From: Labia minor
Lineage: Eukaryota; Arthropoda; Insecta; Dermaptera; Spongiphoridae
Length of the DNA stretch: 64,000 nucleotides
Direction: 5' to 3'
NCBI GenBank assembly: GCA_963082975.1
Contig: OY720346.1
Span: forward strand, 22,128,720-22,192,719
Positions 13,828 through 64,000 of the stretch are shown here, in pieces. The notes below the pieces were generated by a model. It ran no database searches. It was not told the origin of the DNA and saw only the letters and a program-made list of their open reading frames with translations. Every line of letters starts with the position of its first letter. Position 1 is the first letter of the stretch. The position numbers were made by a program, and so were the translations under genes.

Positions 13828-16800
13828 ATGGGTTTACGTCTGAAAATATTATCCATTGCTATTTTATTAGGTTTTTATTCGCTCCACGTAGACACGTTTG
13901 TATTATTATTTATAACTCTAATACAATTCTAATTATCTAATTAATTGATATTTTATTATTTTTTTTTTTTAGAATTCTAAAAATATTTAAAATATTTGGA
14001 ATAAGTATTTTCCTGTTTCTCTTTATTATTCATCCAATTATTTTTAAATTATTTTATCCAATACAAAGAAGTTTATTCTTTTTAAGCTACAGTGAGTTCC
14101 ATTTTTCTTTTTCTTTTATAAAAATAATCATCTATTGTTTATAGTTAATATATATATATATCATATTTCATTTTTTATATCATATTATAATTTAATAATT
14201 ATTTTATCACATTTTCAGTCAATCGTCCTACAAAGCAACAACTCAATGATGTTAATAAAATAGGAATACCATTTGTAAGAAATTTCTATTTAACAACCGA
14301 CGAAAATATACGATTGGGAATTTGGTATGTTTTTCTCACATATTTATTATTTTTTATTTTTTATTTATTTATTTATTTTTTTATTTTTTTATTTTTTTTT
14401 TATTTTATAAAAATTATTACAAAAATGAAACGATTATAAAAATATAGATAAATCAATTTTTTATAATCGTTTTGTTTTTGATTTATTCATTTAAAATGAC
14501 AAGGGGGAGAGTTACTACAGTATAAGTATCTAAAATAAATAGTAGAATATTGACTTATGAAAGCCATGTTATCTCATCGAGTATTTTATTTATATAATTG
14601 ATTTATTAATAAGAGAAAGTATTTTTAAAGTGTTAAACATTAAGTAAAGTTTAAACATTAAAAATTGAAAAAATTAGTTTGAATTAAAATTAATGTTAAA
14701 AATTTATTACAAAACAAATATGAATTCAATAATTAATAAAATTATTATAATTTTATATAATAAGCATTGATGTATTTGAATTTAATTTCAAGACTTTATT
14801 ATTTGTTAATTATTGTTTTAATTGGGTTGGTTCTCCATTTTTAGTTATTCAAATTTATCATTAATGACTAATTATCATTTTTAAATGTTTTTATTTTTAA
14901 GTCATAAATTAGAGTTAAGATAAAAACATCCATTAAATATTTCAATTACTCTTTATAAATATAAATAACAATTCTTTAATATTATAAAAACAATTGTTTA
15001 GAATTTACTAATTAATTAGAAGATACTAATTAAATAAATAAATATTAATTTAAAATCTCAATATATAATTTTAGGCAAATATTACCAAATGTACCAGAAA
15101 TTAAAATTCCTGAATCAGAAGAAAATCAAGAAAAGTATTACGAACAAATGTTATCTTCAGGACGACCTATAATAATTTACATGCATGGAAATTCTGGGTC
15201 CAGATTAAGTGACCATCGGGTTCAACTTTATAAAGTGATATTAAATCTCAATTATCATCTCATAACGTTTGATTATAGAAGTAACTATATTATTTTACAT
15301 ACTTATAATATTTATTTTTAATTATATCAATTATTCAAATATAAAATATTATTACACTTTTTTTACAGATTATGGAGATTCCACTCGATGTACTATTACT
15401 GAAGATGGACTTGTCTCAGATGGATTGTATGTCTATAAATGGGTATATTCAAAAGCCAAAGGAGCACCTATTTTTCTTTGGGGGCATTCTTTGGGGACAG
15501 GGTATGTGATATGAAATTGTTATTATTATAATATTCGGTAACCATAATTATTTACTTTTAATAATTGACACTTAATATATATTATTCACAAACAAAAGAT
15601 CTTAATTATAAATTTAAAAATATGAGCTGTGGGCTGTGGCCAGTCACAGAACCGACCGACGATTTAAAATAAATTAATTTCCAAACAACATTATATATAT
15701 ATATATATATACAGTCCATCCATATAAAGGGTGTGTGTAGGCTTCGAAAAAAACATTTCAATCGTTGGCATAATGCAGAAACGATGCGATTTATCCGACG
15801 TCCAAAAGGGCATGATCATCATATATATATATATATATATATATTGTATATATAAAGTATAAAAAAAATATTTTTAAAAATGACTAAATTATATTATTTT
15901 GGTTTTTATTTTTAATTTAATTACTCAATTATTAATTACTACTATATTTTAAGTGAAATATTTTCCGACAATGAATATAAAATTAATACTTTGTAAACTA
16001 TGACTTCCGGTTTCCGGATATACACCAAAAGTTGATGAATTCATGGTATTGATGCATTAAGTAAATATACCAAATTTTATCAAAATCCGTTGAGCCGTTC
16101 AAGCTGTATACGACTATACGGACATCATGCTAAAAATACTTTTTTCTGTTAACAAAATGCATGATTCGTGGAGATATGTAAAAATCTCCACATGTGAAAT
16201 TTGGTGTGATAACAATACCTTCCCTTTCTACCGTCGGTCGGTAAAAATTGGGTAACAAAATTTTTTGACACTAACCCCAAATTTTATGTTCATTTTTACG
16301 CTCTTTTCGATTGTCCTATAAACGAAATTTTGAATAAACAAAATAGGAATAAAAAATCTCTTTTATTACTAATTTCTAAAGAGTAAATAAAAATATTTTA
16401 ATTTTCTTTTTTAGTGTATCATCACATCTTGTTGAGAAATTAGAAATGGAGGGATGTGATAATATCAAAGGATTAATTTTAGAAGCTCCATTTAATAATA
16501 TGAGAGCCGAAATTTGTGAACATCCATTTTCACTTGTATTTTCTTTTGTTAATTGAATAATATAAATGAATCTATTTTAATGTTAATAATATTTTTTCCT
16601 TTTAGATATATAGATATCTTCCATTTTTCGAGTTCTTCTTTTTGGAGCCTGTTCGATCGAATGGAATATGTTTTGAAAGTGATCGCCATTTAGCCAATTC
16701 TTCTTGTCCCATACTTATCCTTCATTCTGAAGATGATTTCATCGTCCCATTTGTTTTGGCAGAAAGGGTAAATAATATATCTATTTGAAAGTGTTTTACA

Positions 16801-21562: not shown

Positions 21563-23250
21563 CAGTCCCTGGCCAAATTATTAGACGCACTGTATTTTTT
21601 TAATAATTTTATGATTCTTAAGAGTTTTTATACAGTCATTGTATATTTAAACTACAATATTATTGATTTTTATTTAAAATATTTGTCGTAGACTACCTAT
21701 TTGTATTTATTTTAAAAAAATGGCAACACTGTGTTGACAAAGTGATACATGAACGTAAACAAGTACAAACCTATATCAATCGTGATCGAGATCGCGGCAG
21801 GTACGTACGTGTTTCTGTGGCTTTATGGACTGTCATTGTTTGTTTAACTACTCAATTATAACTTTATTTTGTTTAGAGTGTTTGAAAAAAATATTTGGAC
21901 TATTTTTATTATGGGTAGAAAAGTCGATCATACACCACTTAAAAAAGCTGAAGTGAAGGCCCTTATACAAATACATTTACAAACCGGGAAATATCACGAA
22001 GATTGAAGGTTTCTGAAGCCAGTGTACGCCGCATAAAAAAGAAAATTGAGTCTGGGGAGGAATTAAGCTCAAAAAGAAAGAAAAGATGCGGTAGAAAACC
22101 AATTTTCACTCCACGGTCAGAGAGATGTTTGAAAAAAATTTGTCTAGAAAACAGATTTGCTACTACAAAGATGATAAAATCACAACTCCAGGATGCTAGC
22201 GTAAATGCTTCTGAACGCACTGTTCGAAGAAAATTAAAAGAATTAGATTTTAAGGCCTGTCGCCCTGCCAGGAAGCTCAAGTTAACAGCTGCCATGAAAG
22301 CAAAGCGCCTGAAGTGGGCCAAACAATGGAAAGACAAAGATGTGGGCTTCTGGAGATCGGTAAGATTTTGTAATTTTATAAAAAATTGATACATTATAAT
22401 CATTTTCAGTTAGATAAAGCAAAGAAACATGGAAGTTTATATATTTTGTCTATTTTTGACATGTCTGCTTCAGTGACGAAAGCACGTTTGAAATTTTGCA
22501 GAATAAAGCTCTGTATGTGCGTCGTCGTCATGGAGAAAAGTTTCATCTTGACTGTGTCGTTCCAACGGTGAAACATCCAACCAAAGTGATGATTTGGTCG
22601 GTCATCAGCGGCAAGGGTGCTGGACGTCTATACGTCGTAAATGGAATAATGAGGCAACACAAAGGAGTATTACAAAAGAAGTATTACAAAATCGGTTAAT
22701 TCCGCAGCTCAAAGAATTGTTTCTAAATGGGGAACCATTCACTTTCATGCAAGATGGAGCTCCCTGCCACACTGCTCGGTCTGTTAAAGCTTTTTTGGCA
22801 GAAGAAAATATCCCTCTGTTGGATTGGCCGGGTAATAGCCCCGATATGAACCCAATTGGAAATGTGTGGGAGCTAGTGAAAAGAGAAGTGGCTAAAGATA
22901 TGATCACCAACAAAACCCAGCTCCTAGAAAAAATTATTCATATGTGGAATCATCACCCTCAAATGCAGGAGACAGTACAGTCTTGCATTGAGAGCATGCT
23001 GCGCAGAGTTGAAGCTTTGATAGGGGCTAAAGGTGGCTCGACTAAATATTGACTTTTATTTACATTATGTATTTTCATTTTTCTTTAATACTTAATAAAC
23101 ATATAATTTTCTAAATTAATGCTATTTTATTTTATTTTCATTGATTAATATAAAAATAAAAAACAATTCAATTTATAAGTACAATATCACTCGGTAATTA
23201 ATATTTTACATGAAATCTTGCAGTGCGTCTAATAATTTGGCCAGGGACTG
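21563..23250 (+). mobile_element. Full-length Tc1-like transposon, transposase broken
   Basis: Perfect 30-bp inverted ends (21563-21592 and 23221-23250, starting CAGTCCCTGGCCAAATTATT) lie between TA dinucleotides, for 1688 bp. The transposase begins at 21911 (MGRKVDHTPLKK). A frameshift occurs near 21985, the helix-turn-helix region continues from about 21990 to 22359, an intron-like insertion follows at 22360-22470, then FSDEST at 22468-22485 and a second frameshift near 22650, ending GAKGGSTKY with a stop at 23050. Of the DD34E triad, FSDES and FMQDGAPCH are visible, but the Glu position reads NPIGNVW: Gly (22858-22860) replaces Glu. The intact ends suggest recent mobility, probably with help from another copy. 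Confidence 0.95.
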
Positions 23251-26467: not shown

Positions 26468-28584
26468 ATGACATCCTTTATAAAATTAATATTAATCATT
26501 CTAGTCATTTATTTATTTATTTTATACTATGAAACGTATGTAATCATTAAAAAATTTCAATATAAAATATAAAACATTTGTCTTAGATAAAAATAAGAAT
26601 TATAATTAATAATTTAACTCGTTTATTTTTCATTTTATTATTATTATTATTGTTGTTACTATTTCCAGAATTTTTAACTTCTTTAAGACATTTGGCTTCA
26701 CAGTTTTTCTTCTTCTATTTGTGATTATACCAGTATTTTTTAAATTTAATTATTCTTTACAAAGAAGTTTAATCTTTTTAAGTTTTGGTGAGTGAACATA
26801 TTTTTCTTTTATATTATTTATTTAATATATATATATATATATATATATTAGAACAACTAAAACCTCCCTGAAATCTCAGGATTCCAAAACTGACCTTTGT
26901 ACACGTATATGAATTCTCAGCCACACTGAAAATAAGTCAAAAAATAATAATTGTAATATGAATAAATTAGTATGTGGGCGATTTTAACCTTTAATATAAA
27001 TTCATTCAAAAATATAATGATATTTTATAATAATAATAATAAAATTTACTTATATTTTTCTTGCAGTGAAATAAACATTGTTATCTTTTTTCTGTTAAAA
27101 TAGTAAAGACAATAGTTGTTTCATCCTCCATCTAAGTACTAAATTGCATTATTACAATTTGTTCTATATTTTATTATTAACTATATGTGAATAAAAAAAA
27201 AAAATAAATATAGTATATTTTTAAATATAAATTTATCTTTTGTTTAGTCATTGATATTTAAATAATATTTTATAAAGATTTATTACATTTATTTAATTTT
27301 ATTTTATCAAATATTTTAATTATTTTTTTTTTAATTTTTTAAATGTTTTAATAAATATTCTTTAATAAATTTGTTTACGTATTTTAAATTTTTTTTAAAA
27401 AATAAACTAAAATAATCAAAAAGGGTTTTATCTTTCATTATTCTTGATTAAAATATATAAATAAATTATACTATCACTTTACTATATTACAACTTGTTAT
27501 CAATATTATTATTATTAATATTATTTGCAAATTGTTTCAAATAATTTATTGTCTTTGCTTATTTATAGTTAATAGGGCTTCAGAGAAAGAATTAAGAAAC
27601 GTTAATAAAACAGGAATACCTTATATTAGAAACTTTTTTCTTACAACAGATGAAAATATACGTGTGGGTATTTGGTAAGTAAATTTTATAACTTTCATGA
27701 TAAACATTTGAAATTATACTAAGTTAAATTTAAGAATAGAATTTTATATTAGTTTTTATTTCTAATTTTTTCATCAAAAATATAAAACTAGTCAAATCCT
27801 ATTTTTCTTTATTTAAGGTTGTATTCATAATTCGAATTATATTTTTTCAGGCATATTTTACCAAATATTCCAGAAATTAAAGTTCCTGAAGTAGAAGAAC
27901 TACAAGATCAATATTATGAACAAATGTTGGGAACGGGTCGTCCTATAATAATTTATATGCATGGTAATTCAGGGACACGAGCGAGTGAGCATCGTGTACA
28001 ACTTTATAAAGTGATATTAAATCTCAAGTACCAAGTTATTACATTTGATTATCGAAGTAAGAATACTTCTAATAATTTTATTCAATATTAATAAGGGTAA
28101 ATTAAAAAGTGGATTTTTAAAATATTTAAACATTTTAGAAATTTTCTCCAAAATATTAATATATTAATTCTTGAGAATACTTTTATTAATTTTTTTTTCA
28201 TTTTTATAATTTTATTCTAGATTATGGAGATTCAACACGTCACGATCCAACAGAAGATGGATTGGTATCTGATTCAATGTTTGTTTTTAAATGGATCCAC
28301 TCAAAAGCCCAAGGATCACCAATATTCATTTGGGGACACTCTTTAGGAACAGGGTAATTAATATTCTTGTAAAGAAATTAATAGTCTTCTTCATTTTATA
28401 AATAACTTATTGAATAGAATAATTCCTGTTAGTTAACCAAAGAACTGGTCTAAGTAGGATCTCCCTTAATTGGAATTGAAATAGTTAATCCCATTACTAA
28501 TAGTCGCCTCAAACATGAACTGGTTATTATTCGTTAATTTAAATTCTTTTCATCATTCTATATTTCCATTTAAAACTTTATGTT

Positions 28585-51200: not shown

Positions 51201-54200
51201 TTAATACTTTTTAAACTGCCACTTCCAGTTTCCGGATATACACCAAAAGATAATGATTTCATGCTACTAATTCATTAAGTAAATATACCAAATTTTATCA
51301 AAATCCGTTGAGCCGTTCAAACTGTACACGTCTATACGGACACACGGATGGACAAAATGCATGATTCCTGGAAATATGTACCGTAAAAATCTCCGCGTGT
51401 GAAATTTGGTGTGAAAACAATACCTTCCCTTCCTATCGACGGTCGGTAAAAATGTTTTAAGTTAAGCAACACTTATAAGTTTCTATTTAATTCTACAAGC
51501 TAATATGTGCTCACCGAATGTGTATATGCATATCAATATATTCTGATTGAAAGGAAAAATAAGCATTTTAGCCCTTTTTTTTTATTTAAATAAATAAACA
51601 TTTCTATTATTTTGAAATTGAAATTAAAGGAAAATAATAATAATAATTATACTTTTTACGTGGTTTATGTGGGTACATTGTCCAGCAGTTGGTACAGAAA
51701 CTTGCTAATTCTTTTTCTTCACATTCATGCATAACAAAATCGTACTGATATCGAAAACACATTAAACATTTCTGACATCCGTATTTTGCTATATCAGTGC
51801 AGCTTGCCTTTGGATCCCAACTTAGTTGATTCATCAGAAGTGGTAATTTTTCACTAAAATAGATTTCAAGAAGAATAATAATATATAAAACTAAAATAGA
51901 ATATATAATATTATTTAAAACTTACGGAAAGCCCAAATTTTTCCGGAGATTTGGAAGATCGGTAATTTTAAATTCGAAATTATAGTCATTTACAATTGTT
52001 TCTGCTAATGCTTTAATAGATCTAAAATGTTTTAAAATGGGATTTTTTTTTTTTTTAATAATATATTAAAAATAAATTTCATGTATTAAAACAAGTTTGT
52101 TGTGAATAAATATATTATTACCAATTTCTTTATAATAAATATTTAAATCTGCATATAGAAATATTAGTTATAATTAAAAATTATGGTAAATTCTAACCGT
52201 AAATTTTTTTTGGGAAAATTTAGAAAATTTTCTGTTGGCAATTTGAGAATTGGCAAGTATTCTTCATCAAATTGTCCACAAATTGTTTTAAATTCTTGTT
52301 CTGGAGGTACTGTAATTAGAGGATCATCTTTTGTATTTAAAGATTTTTTGTTTCCGGACTGTTGATTTTTATTAAGTCTTGGGCGACCCACTCTGCGTTT
52401 TTGAGGTGTTATACCAGATCCACTTGCAATTGGTTCGTTTTTTTTATTACGACTTGATTTGGATGAAGTTTTATTTGTTTCAGACTTTTCCATTTGCTTT
52501 TGACTTTGATCTTTTCTGGGTCGACCCCTGCGTCTTTTGGGTGGTGGAGGTGTTGGTTCATCAGAATCTAATTCAGTAATTATCACGCTGCTCGATGTTG
52601 TCGGTTGATTTGAATAAAATACATCAGGAGAAATGAATGAATTAATACCAAAAGGTGGGGGTGGAATCCATGGTTCGTTCATATTGGAAAATACATAATT
52701 CAAATTATGAGGAAATGGTGGTATATTATTAGGAAAAGGTGGCATATTATTAGGATAGGGTGGTATATTATTAGGAAAGGGTGATATATTATTAGAAAAT
52801 GGAAAATTATTAGGAAAAGGTGGGATATTATTAGGAAAGGGTGGTATATTATTAGGAAAAGGTGGTATATTATTAGGAAAGGGTGGTATATTATTAGGAA
52901 AAGGTGGTATATTATTAGGAAATGGTGGTATATTATTAGGAAATGGAGGTATATTATTAGGAAATGGTGGTATATTATTAGGAAATGGTGGTATATTATT
53001 AGGAAAATTATTTAAATAATGAGGAATAAAATAAGGATTTCCGTTATGGTATACATTTTTTGTTAATTGGTCTACTAGATAGATATCATGAAAAATATTC
53101 GGATGATACAGAGGCTCTGGTGATTCCACGCGATACAATTCTGAATGAACGGGCATTTCAATATTTGGTTCATCTTTTATCTCTAAATTCATATTTGTTA
53201 TAAAATTGGATAAAAAACTCTCCCTTGTATTCTTATCTAGAAATCATATATATTCTCATTAATAATAGATTCACTATTAAAGAAATTTAATAATATTGGT
53301 TTAAAATATTACCTGAATGTAGATTGCTCCAGGCATTATTATTATTAGGATTGTTTGCTGGGTCAGGCAATATATCTGGAATAACAACTTCCTGTTTCGA
53401 ATCCAAATCTAGAAATAATTTAAAAAATTAAAATAATATTTACATATTTAATAATATATTTAAAATCATGTTAATGTGAATTATAAATAATGAATTTTCT
53501 AGAACAGTATCAGTAAAATGGGCACACACACACAAAAATTTGAATTTAATTTAATTATTATTATTATTATAAGTATATGTAATTTCGATTAATTTAAAAT
53601 TTTGCTACACCCTCAATTAAAAAATAACTCTTTATTAAATATAATCTAATTTTGTTAAAATATCATCTAATTTAAGATCAATTTATTTAGTCATTAACCT
53701 AAAATAATAAGGACTAATTAATTAGCTATTTACCACTTTGGGAATAACCATAATGGAAAAACAAATATACTAGTTATGATCGAGATTGGGTTTATTGTTT
53801 TTCAATCAATTTTTGGAGTACATTTTCCACTTGAATTGAGGTAACTTCAAAAATATGCTTTATGGATTCATCAACCGCTTCAACATAAATAATAATATTT
53901 TAATAATTAGCCAATAAATATTCTGTGTATGTCTCTTTGAGATAACTTATCATTTTTTTTTTTTGGAATGAAATTATATGGTAGAAAAAAGAGGTTAGGT
54001 TTCTTAATTTATTTTTCTTATTGTTTATATATATACTTAAATCATTTTAATTTTATTATTTATTTTTTGTAATTATTTATTTATATTATCTTAAAAATGT
54101 ACATGTGTAGTTGTAATTTAAAAAAAATTTTAATTGTTACTACTAATTTTTATTTGTCTTGCAAATTATTATATTTTATGTCACCCTGAGAGCTTTAGTG

Positions 54201-60667: not shown

Positions 60668-62170
60668 AATAAAATTTCTTAAATTTATAATTTCTTTCTG
60701 CATTTGGGAATCCTAAATAATTTTAGTTAAGAAAATTTTTTAAGATGATGATCCATTTTAAATATTTTTAAAATCAGTTGTTGCTAAGAGATTTAGAGTG
60801 TGACAAGCATTTCGAAGATTTAGAAGAAATTCAATATCTATAGCATAAGTTTTTTCGAAATCAAAAATTTCCAAAATTAACTCATCCCAAAATCTACTTA
60901 TAAATCCTTATTTGTTTGGGTATCCTTTATAAAAACTCTAATTTTATATCATACAACCACTTGTACGCATACTAACATGCTATTTTATAAAATTGGCAAC
61001 GAATTCATTATCAGTATATCACACTCATCCCATCATTAGTTCGTGTATGTTTTCCTGTAGTAAATTATCTGCCTATTATATATATATATAAAATAAATAC
61101 AATTTATGAGAAGGGGTCTAATTTTATGATAATAATCAAGAGTTTATAAGGAAAAGTTTAACTGACTTTTATTTAATATGTTTTAACATAATCATTAAAT
61201 AATATTAGCGAAAATATAATAAGGTAGTACCAAATATTTGAAAAAGGGAAATCTTTCAATTTCAATCTTGAATTGTGCATTTACTGTTACTTATAACTTA
61301 ATTGTCTATAATTGACTGAATTTCGAAATTTATTTCTATTTTTAAAGAGAGTAATCACTAATTATTTTTAATTTCATTTGCTTATCGAATTATCATGTTA
61401 ATTAAAATTTAATGTATTTAAACATATTTTCAATATTTTAATTTATTTAATTATCTGTGATAATGAATAGTGGGTTAACATTTTAGATTTAATCATTCAA
61501 AGTTTACAACCTATGGTAGGGAAGTCTTGTTGAATTAAAGAATTAAGTTATAAAATTTATTTTATATTTATTTCATTATTGTGTGTGAAAATAAAAATTG
61601 ATTTAAAATAAACATAATAAATAATAATCGTAAGGAGGATATTTTGCTAATTTAATTTCCTAAATTATCACTAGGAAAGGCTAAAACTGAATGTTTCTTT
61701 CTCATGATATAAGTTTATTAAAACTCTTCAAATACAGTCATTATCAAGTTTCATCATTGTTAAACACAGGTTTTACTATATTTTAAAAGTTTATCCCTTG
61801 TAAATAATCTATATAAACTTTTTAATAATGAATTTTTCAAAAAGAAAACATTTTGTAAAATTTCTACTTTCGCAAATCTCTTTTTTGCTCAAATCAAATT
61901 TCGGGATAATTGACTTCTTCACAATATTTTAATAGTTGAATATGACTAATCAAGGAAATATAAATTCAACTATAGGATACTACTTACATATATAGGATAT
62001 ATATATCAAAGAGCCAAAAATGATGTCCAAAAATGCTGATAATATAATATGGAATTCATTTAGCTTAAATTAAAGTTTTTTATATGTAGCAATAATAGCT
62101 ATATTGAAGGTTATTTGATATAATGATAAATTGACTTTCAAAATTTATAAAAATATATATCCAATATTAA
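60668..62170. other. AT-rich spacer before the piggyBac-like element
   Basis: No gene or repeat is recognised. It ends in TTAA (62167-62170), the target site of the piggyBac-like insertion. Confidence 0.5.
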
Positions 62171-62293
62171 CCCTACACTGCTATTTGTATCATATATGAT
62201 ACGCCTAAAAAACCATCCATATATTAATACATATAAGAGGTATATTGTGTTTAAACGCGTTGTAGCTTATTTGCTACATCCTTGTGCACAACC

Positions 62294-62300
62294 TATATAA
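62294..62300 (+). promoter_or_regulatory. Candidate TATA box of the piggyBac-like element
   Basis: TATATAA lies in a GC-richer setting (CACAACCTATATAAGTTAC), 78 bp before the first leader unit. It is plausible for transcription starting near 62325. Confidence 0.35.
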
Positions 62301-62371
62301 GTTACTTTGGCTTGTAGCTCATAGATGTAGCTACGTGCATCCATCTACCTGTTTGCTGTCATAACATAAAG

Positions 62372-62991
62372 TTACATGTCAAACAGCGCTTAGAAAAATT
62401 AGAAATTGTCAATTTTTTATTGCTCCAATCACTATAAATTTGTGTCTTTAGTAAGTATAAGGTAAGTATTTATGATTTGCTACATAAATTTGTACAATTC
62501 TTCACACGTAGCGTGAAGAATTGTCAAATAAATTCGATGTAGCAAATCTGATACATAGAGCATAATCATTTCTTTTAGTTACCTGTCAAACAGCGCTTAT
62601 TAGAATTAAAAATTTGGTATTTTTTATTACTCCAATCAATATAAATTTGGGTCTTTATTAAGTATAAGGTAAGTATTTATGATTTGCTACATAAATTTGT
62701 ACAATTCTTCACACGTAGCGTGAAGAATTGTCAAATCAATTCGATGTAGCAAATCTGATACATAGAGCATAATCATTTCTTTTAGTTACCTGTCAAACAG
62801 CGCTTATTAAAATTAAAAATTTGGTATTTTTATTGCTCCAATCAATATAAATTTGGGTCTTTATTAAGTATAAGGTAAGTATTTATGATTTGCTACATAA
62901 ATTTGTAAAATTCTTCACACGTAGCGTGAAGAATTGTCAAATAAATTCGATGTAGCAAATCTGATACATAGAGCATAATCATTTCTTTTAG
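62372..62991 (+). repeat. Three tandem 207-bp leader units, each with splice signals and a hairpin
   Basis: Copies occupy 62372-62578, 62579-62785 and 62786-62991. Each starts TTAC(A/C)TGTCAAACAGCGCTTA. Each has AAG|GTAAGTATTT (donors at 62462, 62669, 62875) and ends TCATTTCTTTTAG (acceptors ending 62578, 62785, 62991), defining three 117-nt introns and 89-90 nt mini-exons. Each intron contains a hairpin: GATTTGCTACA pairs with TGTAGCAAATC, and CAATTCTTCAC with GTGAAGAATTG around a 7-nt loop (the third copy has one mismatch). The mini-exons have no ATG, while the introns do, so splicing would clear upstream start codons before the ATG at 62999. Confidence 0.9.
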
Positions 62992-62998
62992 GAACATC

Positions 62999-64000
62999 AT
63001 GCCGATTCCAAAGCCTAGGTTTAAATATTATACGGCTGAGGAGTTGAGAGATATTGTTGCAAATTTTTCTGATAGTGAAGATGATTTGGACTTATCAGAG
63101 GATGACGAAAAAGAGTCAGAGACTTTTAATATGCCTCTTGAAAATATGACAATACAATTTGAAGATGGAGTCATTTGTGAAGCTTCGACATCAGCTGTAG
63201 AGGTAGAAGAAACTCTAGAAGAAGAATCTTTAGAAGATGAGGAAACTGTAGATGAACAAATTATTAATCCGGAAAACAGAAACAGTATTCAAGAGTTACG
63301 TGAGCTCAAGCAAAGATATTCAAAAATAATCTGGAGACAGAAAAATTTAATTTTAGAAGAAGAGAGGAAGCATTTTATTTCAGATGGTTCTTGTAGCAAT
63401 ATCTTTGAAAACATCACAACCCCATTCCAATTCTTTACTTATTTTTTTGGTGACGACATTCTCACCAAAATCATTGAGGAGTCAAATTTATATTTAAGGC
63501 AAAAAGATCCGAATAATACATTTAAACTCTCTTCAGACGACTTAAGAAAGTTTTTGGGCATATGTATTTATATGTCCATTGTCCATATGCCTAATGTCAG
63601 AAGTTATTGGTCCAACACTTTAGGCTATCTCCATATCAAAGAAGTAATGAGCTACAAAGACTTTGAAAAAATTCGTGCTTCCCTTCATTTTAATAATAAT
63701 GAGAAAATGTTCGGCAGGGATCACCCGCAACATGATCGCCTTTACAAACTTCGACCTATTATTGAGTACTTAAATTTGAAATTTCAAGGTATTCCTCTAC
63801 AGGAATACCTTGCAGTAGATGAACAAATGTGTGCAACGAAAGCTCGAAACTACTTGAAACAGTATCTCCCAGCAAAACCACACAAATGGGGTTACAAATT
63901 ATTTCTTTTATGTGGTTCAGATGGATTTGCTTATTCTTTCGAAATTTATTGCGGTGCAGGCATCGAACAGAAACTAAAGCATGATGAACCTGACTTGGGT
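62999..64000 (+). CDS. piggyBac-type transposase, N-terminal 334 residues
   Basis: The protein would cut and paste DNA at TTAA using an RNase-H-like DDD core. The frame is open from ATG 62999, eight bases after a strong splice acceptor, to the window edge, with no stop in 334 codons. Residues about 1-110 are acidic (SDSEDDLDLSEDDEKE-like), as usual for the family. The DDE_Tnp_1_7 domain follows: FFTYFFGDDILTKI, LGICIYMSIVHMPNVRSYW, DRLYKLRPIIEYL and EYLAVDEQMCATKARN, with the first catalytic Asp in LAVDEQM, then KPHKWGYKLFLLCGSDGFAY. The remaining catalytic Asp residues and any Cys-rich C-terminus would be past 64000. The absence of breaks suggests a young copy or a domesticated gene. Confidence 0.92.
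   Translation, partial: MPIPKPRFKYYTAEELRDIVANFSDSEDDLDLSEDDEKESETFNMPLENMTIQFEDGVICEASTSAVEVEETLEEESLEDEETVDEQIINPENRNSIQELRELKQRYSKIIWRQKNLILEEERKHFISDGSCSNIFENITTPFQFFTYFFGDDILTKIIEESNLYLRQKDPNNTFKLSSDDLRKFLGICIYMSIVHMPNVRSYWSNTLGYLHIKEVMSYKDFEKIRASLHFNNNEKMFGRDHPQHDRLYKLRPIIEYLNLKFQGIPLQEYLAVDEQMCATKARNYLKQYLPAKPHKWGYKLFLLCGSDGFAYSFEIYCGAGIEQKLKHDEPDLG

Follow-up and report, generated by a model that had tools for sequence, protein, structure and literature searches.

Why would a DNA transposon carry three consecutive copies of what looks like an exon and an intron in front of its transposase gene? This question is raised by positions 62372-62991 of the window (the whole 64-kb stretch analysed here, with 26% GC, on contig C4 of the 604 Mb genome that was searched), where three units of 207, 207 and 206 bp lie between the left end of a transposable element and its transposase ATG. 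TRF confirms the three-unit tandem array of the original prediction (62370-62991, period 207, 3.0 copies, 95% matches). Judging from sequence, we consider it probable on balance that this is a piggyBac-type transposon and that the mRNA of its transposase carries a spliced 5′ leader.

The element is a member of the piggyBac superfamily by its TTAA flanks, CCC-type ends and DDE transposase. It is 2,887 bp long (region L021) and starts at 62171; the window holds the first 1,830 bp (62171-64000, plus strand). TTAA target-site duplications lie on both sides, the left one at 62167-62170 and the second after the right end, beyond the window, and flank three copies with different surroundings. Terminal inverted repeats of 12 bp, CCCTACACTGCT, begin with CCC and occur at both ends, the right one in inverted form. 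The transposase frame starts with the ATG at 62999 and is open over 628 aa, 334 codons of which are inside the window (62999-64000, plus strand), and it matches Pfam PF13843 (DDE_Tnp_1_7) at E 6.7e-80. By sequence, the closest proteins of solved structure are the piggyBat transposase (9c0f, 4.5e-34) and then 6x67, titled Transposase (1.3e-22). In an alignment with PDB chain 6x67_C, residues D274, D358, D473 and D476 pair with aspartates that occupy the same motifs and that we take to be the catalytic ones. The C terminus is visibly Cys/His-rich, and zero Pfam zinc-finger models match it at E 0.01. The coding part ends at element position 2715, and an AATAAA at 2770 places a polyadenylation signal 55 nt past the stop codon, which argues for a transcript with a spliced leader.

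Each unit consists of an exon-like half followed by an intron-like half, all on the plus strand. The exon halves span 62372-62461 (90 nt), 62579-62668 (90 nt) and 62786-62874 (89 nt), and the intron halves, each of 117 nt and with a hairpin, span 62462-62578, 62669-62785 and 62875-62991. The predicted junctions 62461/62579, 62668/62786 and 62874/62992 coincide with these boundaries, and the donor AAG/GTAAGT and the acceptor TCATTTCTTTTAG are present in all three units. Every exon-like half ends in AAG, and every intron-like half opens with GTAAGT and closes with TTTCTTTTAG; in unit 3 this acceptor, TTTCTTTTAG, is followed by 7 nt and then the transposase ATG. With near-consensus donors and acceptors and the last acceptor this close to the ATG, the array appears splice-competent, as had been proposed. 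Exon 3, at 89 nt, lacks one base relative to the other two. When spliced, it would provide 29 open codons in frame with the transposase ATG, which chance may explain; the same spliced frame is interrupted by a stop in each of exons 1 and 2.

The splice signals are rare in this DNA. MAGGTRAGT occurs three times on both strands of the 64-kb window, always as a unit donor, against a shuffle mean of 0.87, and 5 of 100 shuffles of the window contain it three or more times. The donor AGGTAAGT followed by CTTTTAG 90-118 nt later also occurs three times in the window, against a mean of 0.00 and a maximum of 0 in 100 shuffles. The three matches are not independent evidence because the units are one ancestral unit repeated. 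A spliced leader is nevertheless favored because the donor-acceptor pairs far exceed chance.

Transcription may start below TATATAA (62294-62300, plus strand), a candidate promoter element of a kind that is frequent in AT-rich DNA. Before splicing, the leader contains eight ATGs between 62300 and the start codon: 62325 (ATG TAG), 62376 in exon 1 (five codons, then TAG) and two in every intron half, where one per intron had been predicted. The spliceosome would remove the three 117-nt introns, with the hairpins bringing donor and acceptor nearer to each other, and would thereby take out six of the eight ATGs together with three strong hairpins that may hinder translation. Full splicing would leave the ATG TAG at 62325, if transcribed, and the five-codon frame at 62376. 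The mini-exons had been described as free of ATGs, which holds for exons 2 and 3 but fails for exon 1, and the clean leader envisaged after full splicing is lost with it. The upstream ATG that exon 1 retains weakens the case for a spliced leader.

The long two-part hairpin predicted for every intron half is found in all three, each half forming a single such structure. Their folding energies are -38.2, -36.4 and -33.8 kcal/mol (z -7.1, -6.1 and -6.0), and 0 of 200 shuffles are equally stable for each of the three. Stems this stable, with z of about -6 to -7, could be a source of diced small RNAs acting on the element, an explanation that we consider the least probable of all, as zero Rfam families come near their gathering score. 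The six weak Rfam matches to the hairpin, at E up to 1, are all far below it, and the miRNA-type ones score 20.6 to 23.6 bits where 75 to 101 would be required. The hairpin was rejected as a known RNA family on the same grounds.

An acceptor directly upstream of a piggyBac-type transposase has precedents. In PGBD3, a 3′ splice site is located 7 nt before the transposase ATG, T. ni piggyBac has a potential acceptor before its transposase, and piggyBac was proposed to act as a 3′ terminal exon trap, according to the part of the study cited here (Newman et al. 2008, PMC2268245). A spliced leader in the present element is favored because its 7-nt acceptor-ATG spacing equals that of PGBD3 and is kept in two decayed copies (L025 and L030). 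The likeness to PGBD3 and T. ni piggyBac extends to both landmarks, an acceptor just before the ATG and a polyadenylation signal soon past the stop (PMC2268245). PGBD3 and T. ni piggyBac are described there with one acceptor, whereas the present element has three, interspersed with three matched donors and mini-exons. Inserted in an intron of a host gene, the element could capture host transcripts by means of these acceptors, in the way published for PGBD3; in sequence, it resembles such an exon trap.

Related elements in the same genome were surveyed for acceptors. In a sister family with ~50% amino acid identity, AAATTTTTAG occurs one base before the ATG in two members (L039 and L040), and L040 has a possible donor, AAAAG/GTGTGT, 252 nt upstream of the acceptor. 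A spliced leader is favored because this family has both the acceptor and a possible donor, and is weakened because the putative 252-nt intron of L040 is not unusually structured (z +0.82), leaving the hairpin without a counterpart in the sister family. The survey covered 22 piggyBac-type sequences, a small part of the matches listed (72 and 117), that were grouped by eye into 18, and the start was guessed as the first in-frame ATG. L038, L050, L052, L060, L061 and L062 were left out because they have no upstream ATG in frame, and L040, L053 and L063 because another member already represented their groups. YYYYAG, one of three patterns tried, lies within 27 nt of the ATG in 4 of 18 groups, compared with 11 of 162 control windows (P 0.03). 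The three simple acceptor patterns, each counted in a single sequence per group, are found in 4/18 (P 0.03), 2/18 (P 0.07) and 7/18 (P 0.002). The excess is absent with a frequency-based weight matrix, by which 1 of 18 groups scores 2 or more compared with 9.7% of 176 control windows. A general rule of an acceptor before the ATG in piggyBac-type elements of this genome was rejected; the acceptor-like motif is a minority feature among the 18 groups, which weakens the case for splicing here.

Individual relatives show variations on the motif. L056 has TTTTTATTTTAG 15 nt before its ATG. In L054 (C5, 16.7 Mb), which belongs to a different piggyBac-type family, bases 1291-1326 consist of three tandem 12-bp copies of ATTTTATTTTAG, which is acceptor-like, ending 18 nt before the ATG, and the last 70 nt before the ATG are the same in L053. 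This family possibly multiplied an acceptor independently, judging from these repeats.

The units could also be repeated promoter or factor-binding DNA that is read as DNA, comparable to the monomers of mouse L1, in which case the splice signals would matter little. We regard this as unlikely, although it is the chief alternative to splicing. TGTAGC/GCTACA is present at 30 sites in the 64-kb window compared with 9.66 expected, and 10 of the 30 are within 62261-62956: four upstream of the units, surrounding the candidate TATA box (62261-62331), and two in each unit. These sites fit a DNA-binding role equally well and to that extent weaken the case for a spliced leader. TATAAA occurs in every exon half, but is frequent by chance at 26% GC. 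The 11-mer ATTTGCTACAT is common to the units and the region upstream, at the array spacing, yet alignment of this region with the whole unit is non-significant, with 115 of 1000 shuffles equally good. The corresponding count is 59/1000 for the intron half, and with softer scoring 312/1000 for the intron half and 724/1000 for the exon half. The 11-mer and the common TGTAGC may point to a decayed fourth unit ahead of unit 1, but the overall alignment is non-significant. A role as regulatory DNA also leaves the perfect donor-acceptor pairs and the 7-nt spacing between acceptor and ATG unexplained.

The closest parallel to such upstream repeats is Pokey, a member of the piggyBac superfamily in Daphnia that has 2-5 repeats of ~200 bp upstream of the transposase, which undergo concerted evolution (PMC3849761). 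The likeness to the present array lies in repeats of ~200 bp upstream of a transposase. In the part of that paper cited here, the authors prefer a transcription role for the Pokey repeats, which favors a regulatory function for the units and weakens the case for splicing. The Pokey repeats are not described there as carrying splice sites, whereas the leader units do carry them, and the known intron of Pokey is in the coding part. The Pokey repeats derive from an rDNA spacer, whereas the present unit is without listed matches outside its own family in the assembly. Unit 1 has 25 listed genome matches, all in this family (14 on the same strand and 11 inverted-repeat echoes), in a search that leaves very common words aside and scores the best candidates only; rDNA may be missing from the assembly. 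As far as searched, this distribution of the listed matches speaks against a unit that moves on its own, and that reading was rejected.

Alternatively, the array could bind the transposase, with the hairpin palindromes assembling the left end or repressing the element's own promoter. The units are palindromic and close to the left end, and another family, L064 (reverse strand, C4 38.85 Mb), has three 45-bp repeats directly behind its terminal repeat, within the first 144 bp. Each of these holds a palindrome GTCGCC..GGCGAC with one variable letter, and they likely form a transposase-binding array, judging from sequence and position. For the present units we consider such a function improbable. 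The TGTAGC motif has zero occurrences past position 1481 of the 2,887-bp element and is thus missing from its right third, whereas a different palindrome, GTATCA..TGATAC, is common to both ends and occurs once near each of them. These copies, GTATCATATATGATAC at 62187-62202 and its counterpart GTATCAAATTTGATAC near the right end, are likely to be the better candidates for transposase sites.

Other copies of the element bear on the history of the array. Three full copies were found, A in the window (C4), B on C1 and C on C2, and all carry three units. The sequences of B and C (L022 and L023, at C1:53.06 Mb and C2:70.74 Mb) match each other throughout the 2,887 bp; A departs from them at 6 of 2,887 sites, none of which is in the leader. 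A, B and C appear to have transposed recently, because their flanks differ and the copies are nearly identical. A chance array or an assembly artefact was rejected, as the array is found at three places with different flanks. B and C have in common a premature transposase stop that is absent from A. They were probably moved in trans, by transposase made elsewhere, because identical copies on different contigs share this stop.

A match reaches the left end at seven places, and at least one unit is present in five of these (A, B, C, L024 and L026); L031 is without element positions 123-2029, and the match of L032 comprises positions 1-58 only. L024, which is ~5% diverged, has two full units and ~20 bases of the third exon, followed by a deletion into the coding part. 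The decayed L026 has one unit, then TTA, then a deletion, and it holds a single unit because the deletion follows that unit. Single-unit copies with mutated splice sites had been named as evidence against splicing; the unit of L026 retains AAG/GTAAG and TTTTAG. These signals are kept in all six complete units examined (two in L024, one in L026), a retention at 5-8% divergence that is weak evidence taken alone. Of the last intron half, only the end remains in the decayed L025 and L030, with the acceptor and the 7-nt spacing intact. No relatives elsewhere were confirmed among 14 viral-contig and 78 genome-contig pattern matches.

The array is older than the latest burst of transposition because L024, at ~5% divergence, holds two units and the start of a third. 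This bears on neutral duplication, by which one ordinary leader intron was copied by slippage or unequal exchange and unit number has no effect. Drift is easy with only three full copies found, all nearly identical, and units 2 and 3 differ at just 3 of 90 sites in their exon halves and 2 of 117 in their intron halves. We nevertheless give this a low probability, as at least the beginning of a third exon was present in the decayed L024 too, meaning that several units persisted.

The intron halves of copy A differ from one another at 1, 1 and 2 of 117 sites. Between exon 1 and exon 2, 13 of 90 aligned columns differ, and between exon 1 and exon 3, 12 of 90; pairwise alignment gives 9 substitutions and 2 indels for the first pair and 7 and 3 for the second. 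Exon 1 divergence exceeds that of the intron halves (Fisher P 1e-4 for exon 2, 2e-4 for exon 3), whereas exons 2 and 3 do not stand out in this way (P 0.65). In the second exon of L024, the left part is exon 1-like and the right part exon 2-like. Exchange between units would account for this mosaic and for the pattern of similarity among the halves. The intron halves may also be under selection, but the pattern is explicable without it, and between copies A, L024 and L026 the intron halves are not clearly better conserved than the exon halves. In the spliced-leader reading, the cassette would have multiplied via tandem duplication, and unequal exchange or conversion would have kept the units alike. 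Tandem duplications that include splice sites are known from lancelet 'mirages', among them one in the PGBD5 gene, in the cited part of PMC3902484. The mirages affect coding exons of host genes and a domesticated piggyBac gene, whereas the present duplications lie in the leader of a mobile element.

A stronger version of the spliced leader is that the array serves as a splice gate and unit number as a heritable dial for the transposition rate. We consider this doubtful. If true, translatable transposase mRNA would fall as the number of introns that need removal increases, three acceptors would raise the odds of catching a host transcript, and unequal exchange would alter unit number and hence the transposition rate. 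The exon halves end in crowded donor-like sequence, AA/GTATAAG/GTAAGT, and exon 1 holds a further, complete GTAAGTAT (62451, 11 nt before the donor), the first base of which is altered in units 2 and 3. These crowded ends could compete for U1. In the Drosophila P element, retention of the intron IVS3 decides transposase production, and pseudo-donors are located in a silencer upstream of the true donor, as summarized in the cited part of a review (PMC7776569). The donor-like sequence upstream of the donor in exon 1 resembles this arrangement (PMC7776569). The P element retains one coding intron, whereas the putative introns described here are in the leader.

The leader had been put forward as a form not previously described. 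Each half has a precedent, as an acceptor before the transposase and ~200-bp upstream repeats are already known separately, but the combination was not found in the open-licence literature: no report of a repeated leader intron in piggyBac was found in open-licence PubMed Central papers, and by word search the main text of two insect piggyBac surveys (PMC10140906, PMC12732532) is without the terms tandem, intron, UTR, untranslated and splice. What is new, as far as searched, is that matched donor/acceptor units have been multiplied in tandem in a piggyBac leader. The idea of piggyBac as an exon trap is based on elements with a single acceptor in front of the transposase. A family with a multiplied acceptor and a matched donor, and with several units that persisted over no fewer than two ages of copies, would allow a direct test of splicing control over piggyBac activity and would show whether unit number tunes a DNA transposon. 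Transposase regulation in natural relatives is of practical interest because piggyBac is a widely used gene vector.

The window contains other features. A 359-aa open frame on the minus strand (52167-53243) has ~14 copies of a 7-aa repeat of the FPNNIPP type, encoded by a 21-bp DNA repeat at 52704-53006, along with a KRRRGRPRK stretch and zero Pfam matches. Two similar exon-like frames on the plus strand (15049-15318 and 27831-28088), ~12.8 kb apart, share IIIYMHGNSG and VQLYKVILNL, and zero Pfam matches were found to these short frames. They probably represent a duplicated hydrolase-type gene, a label that is a guess. Tc1-type transposase remnants are present at 21952-23049, with HTH_Tnp_Tc3_2 and DDE_3 in two adjacent plus-strand frames.
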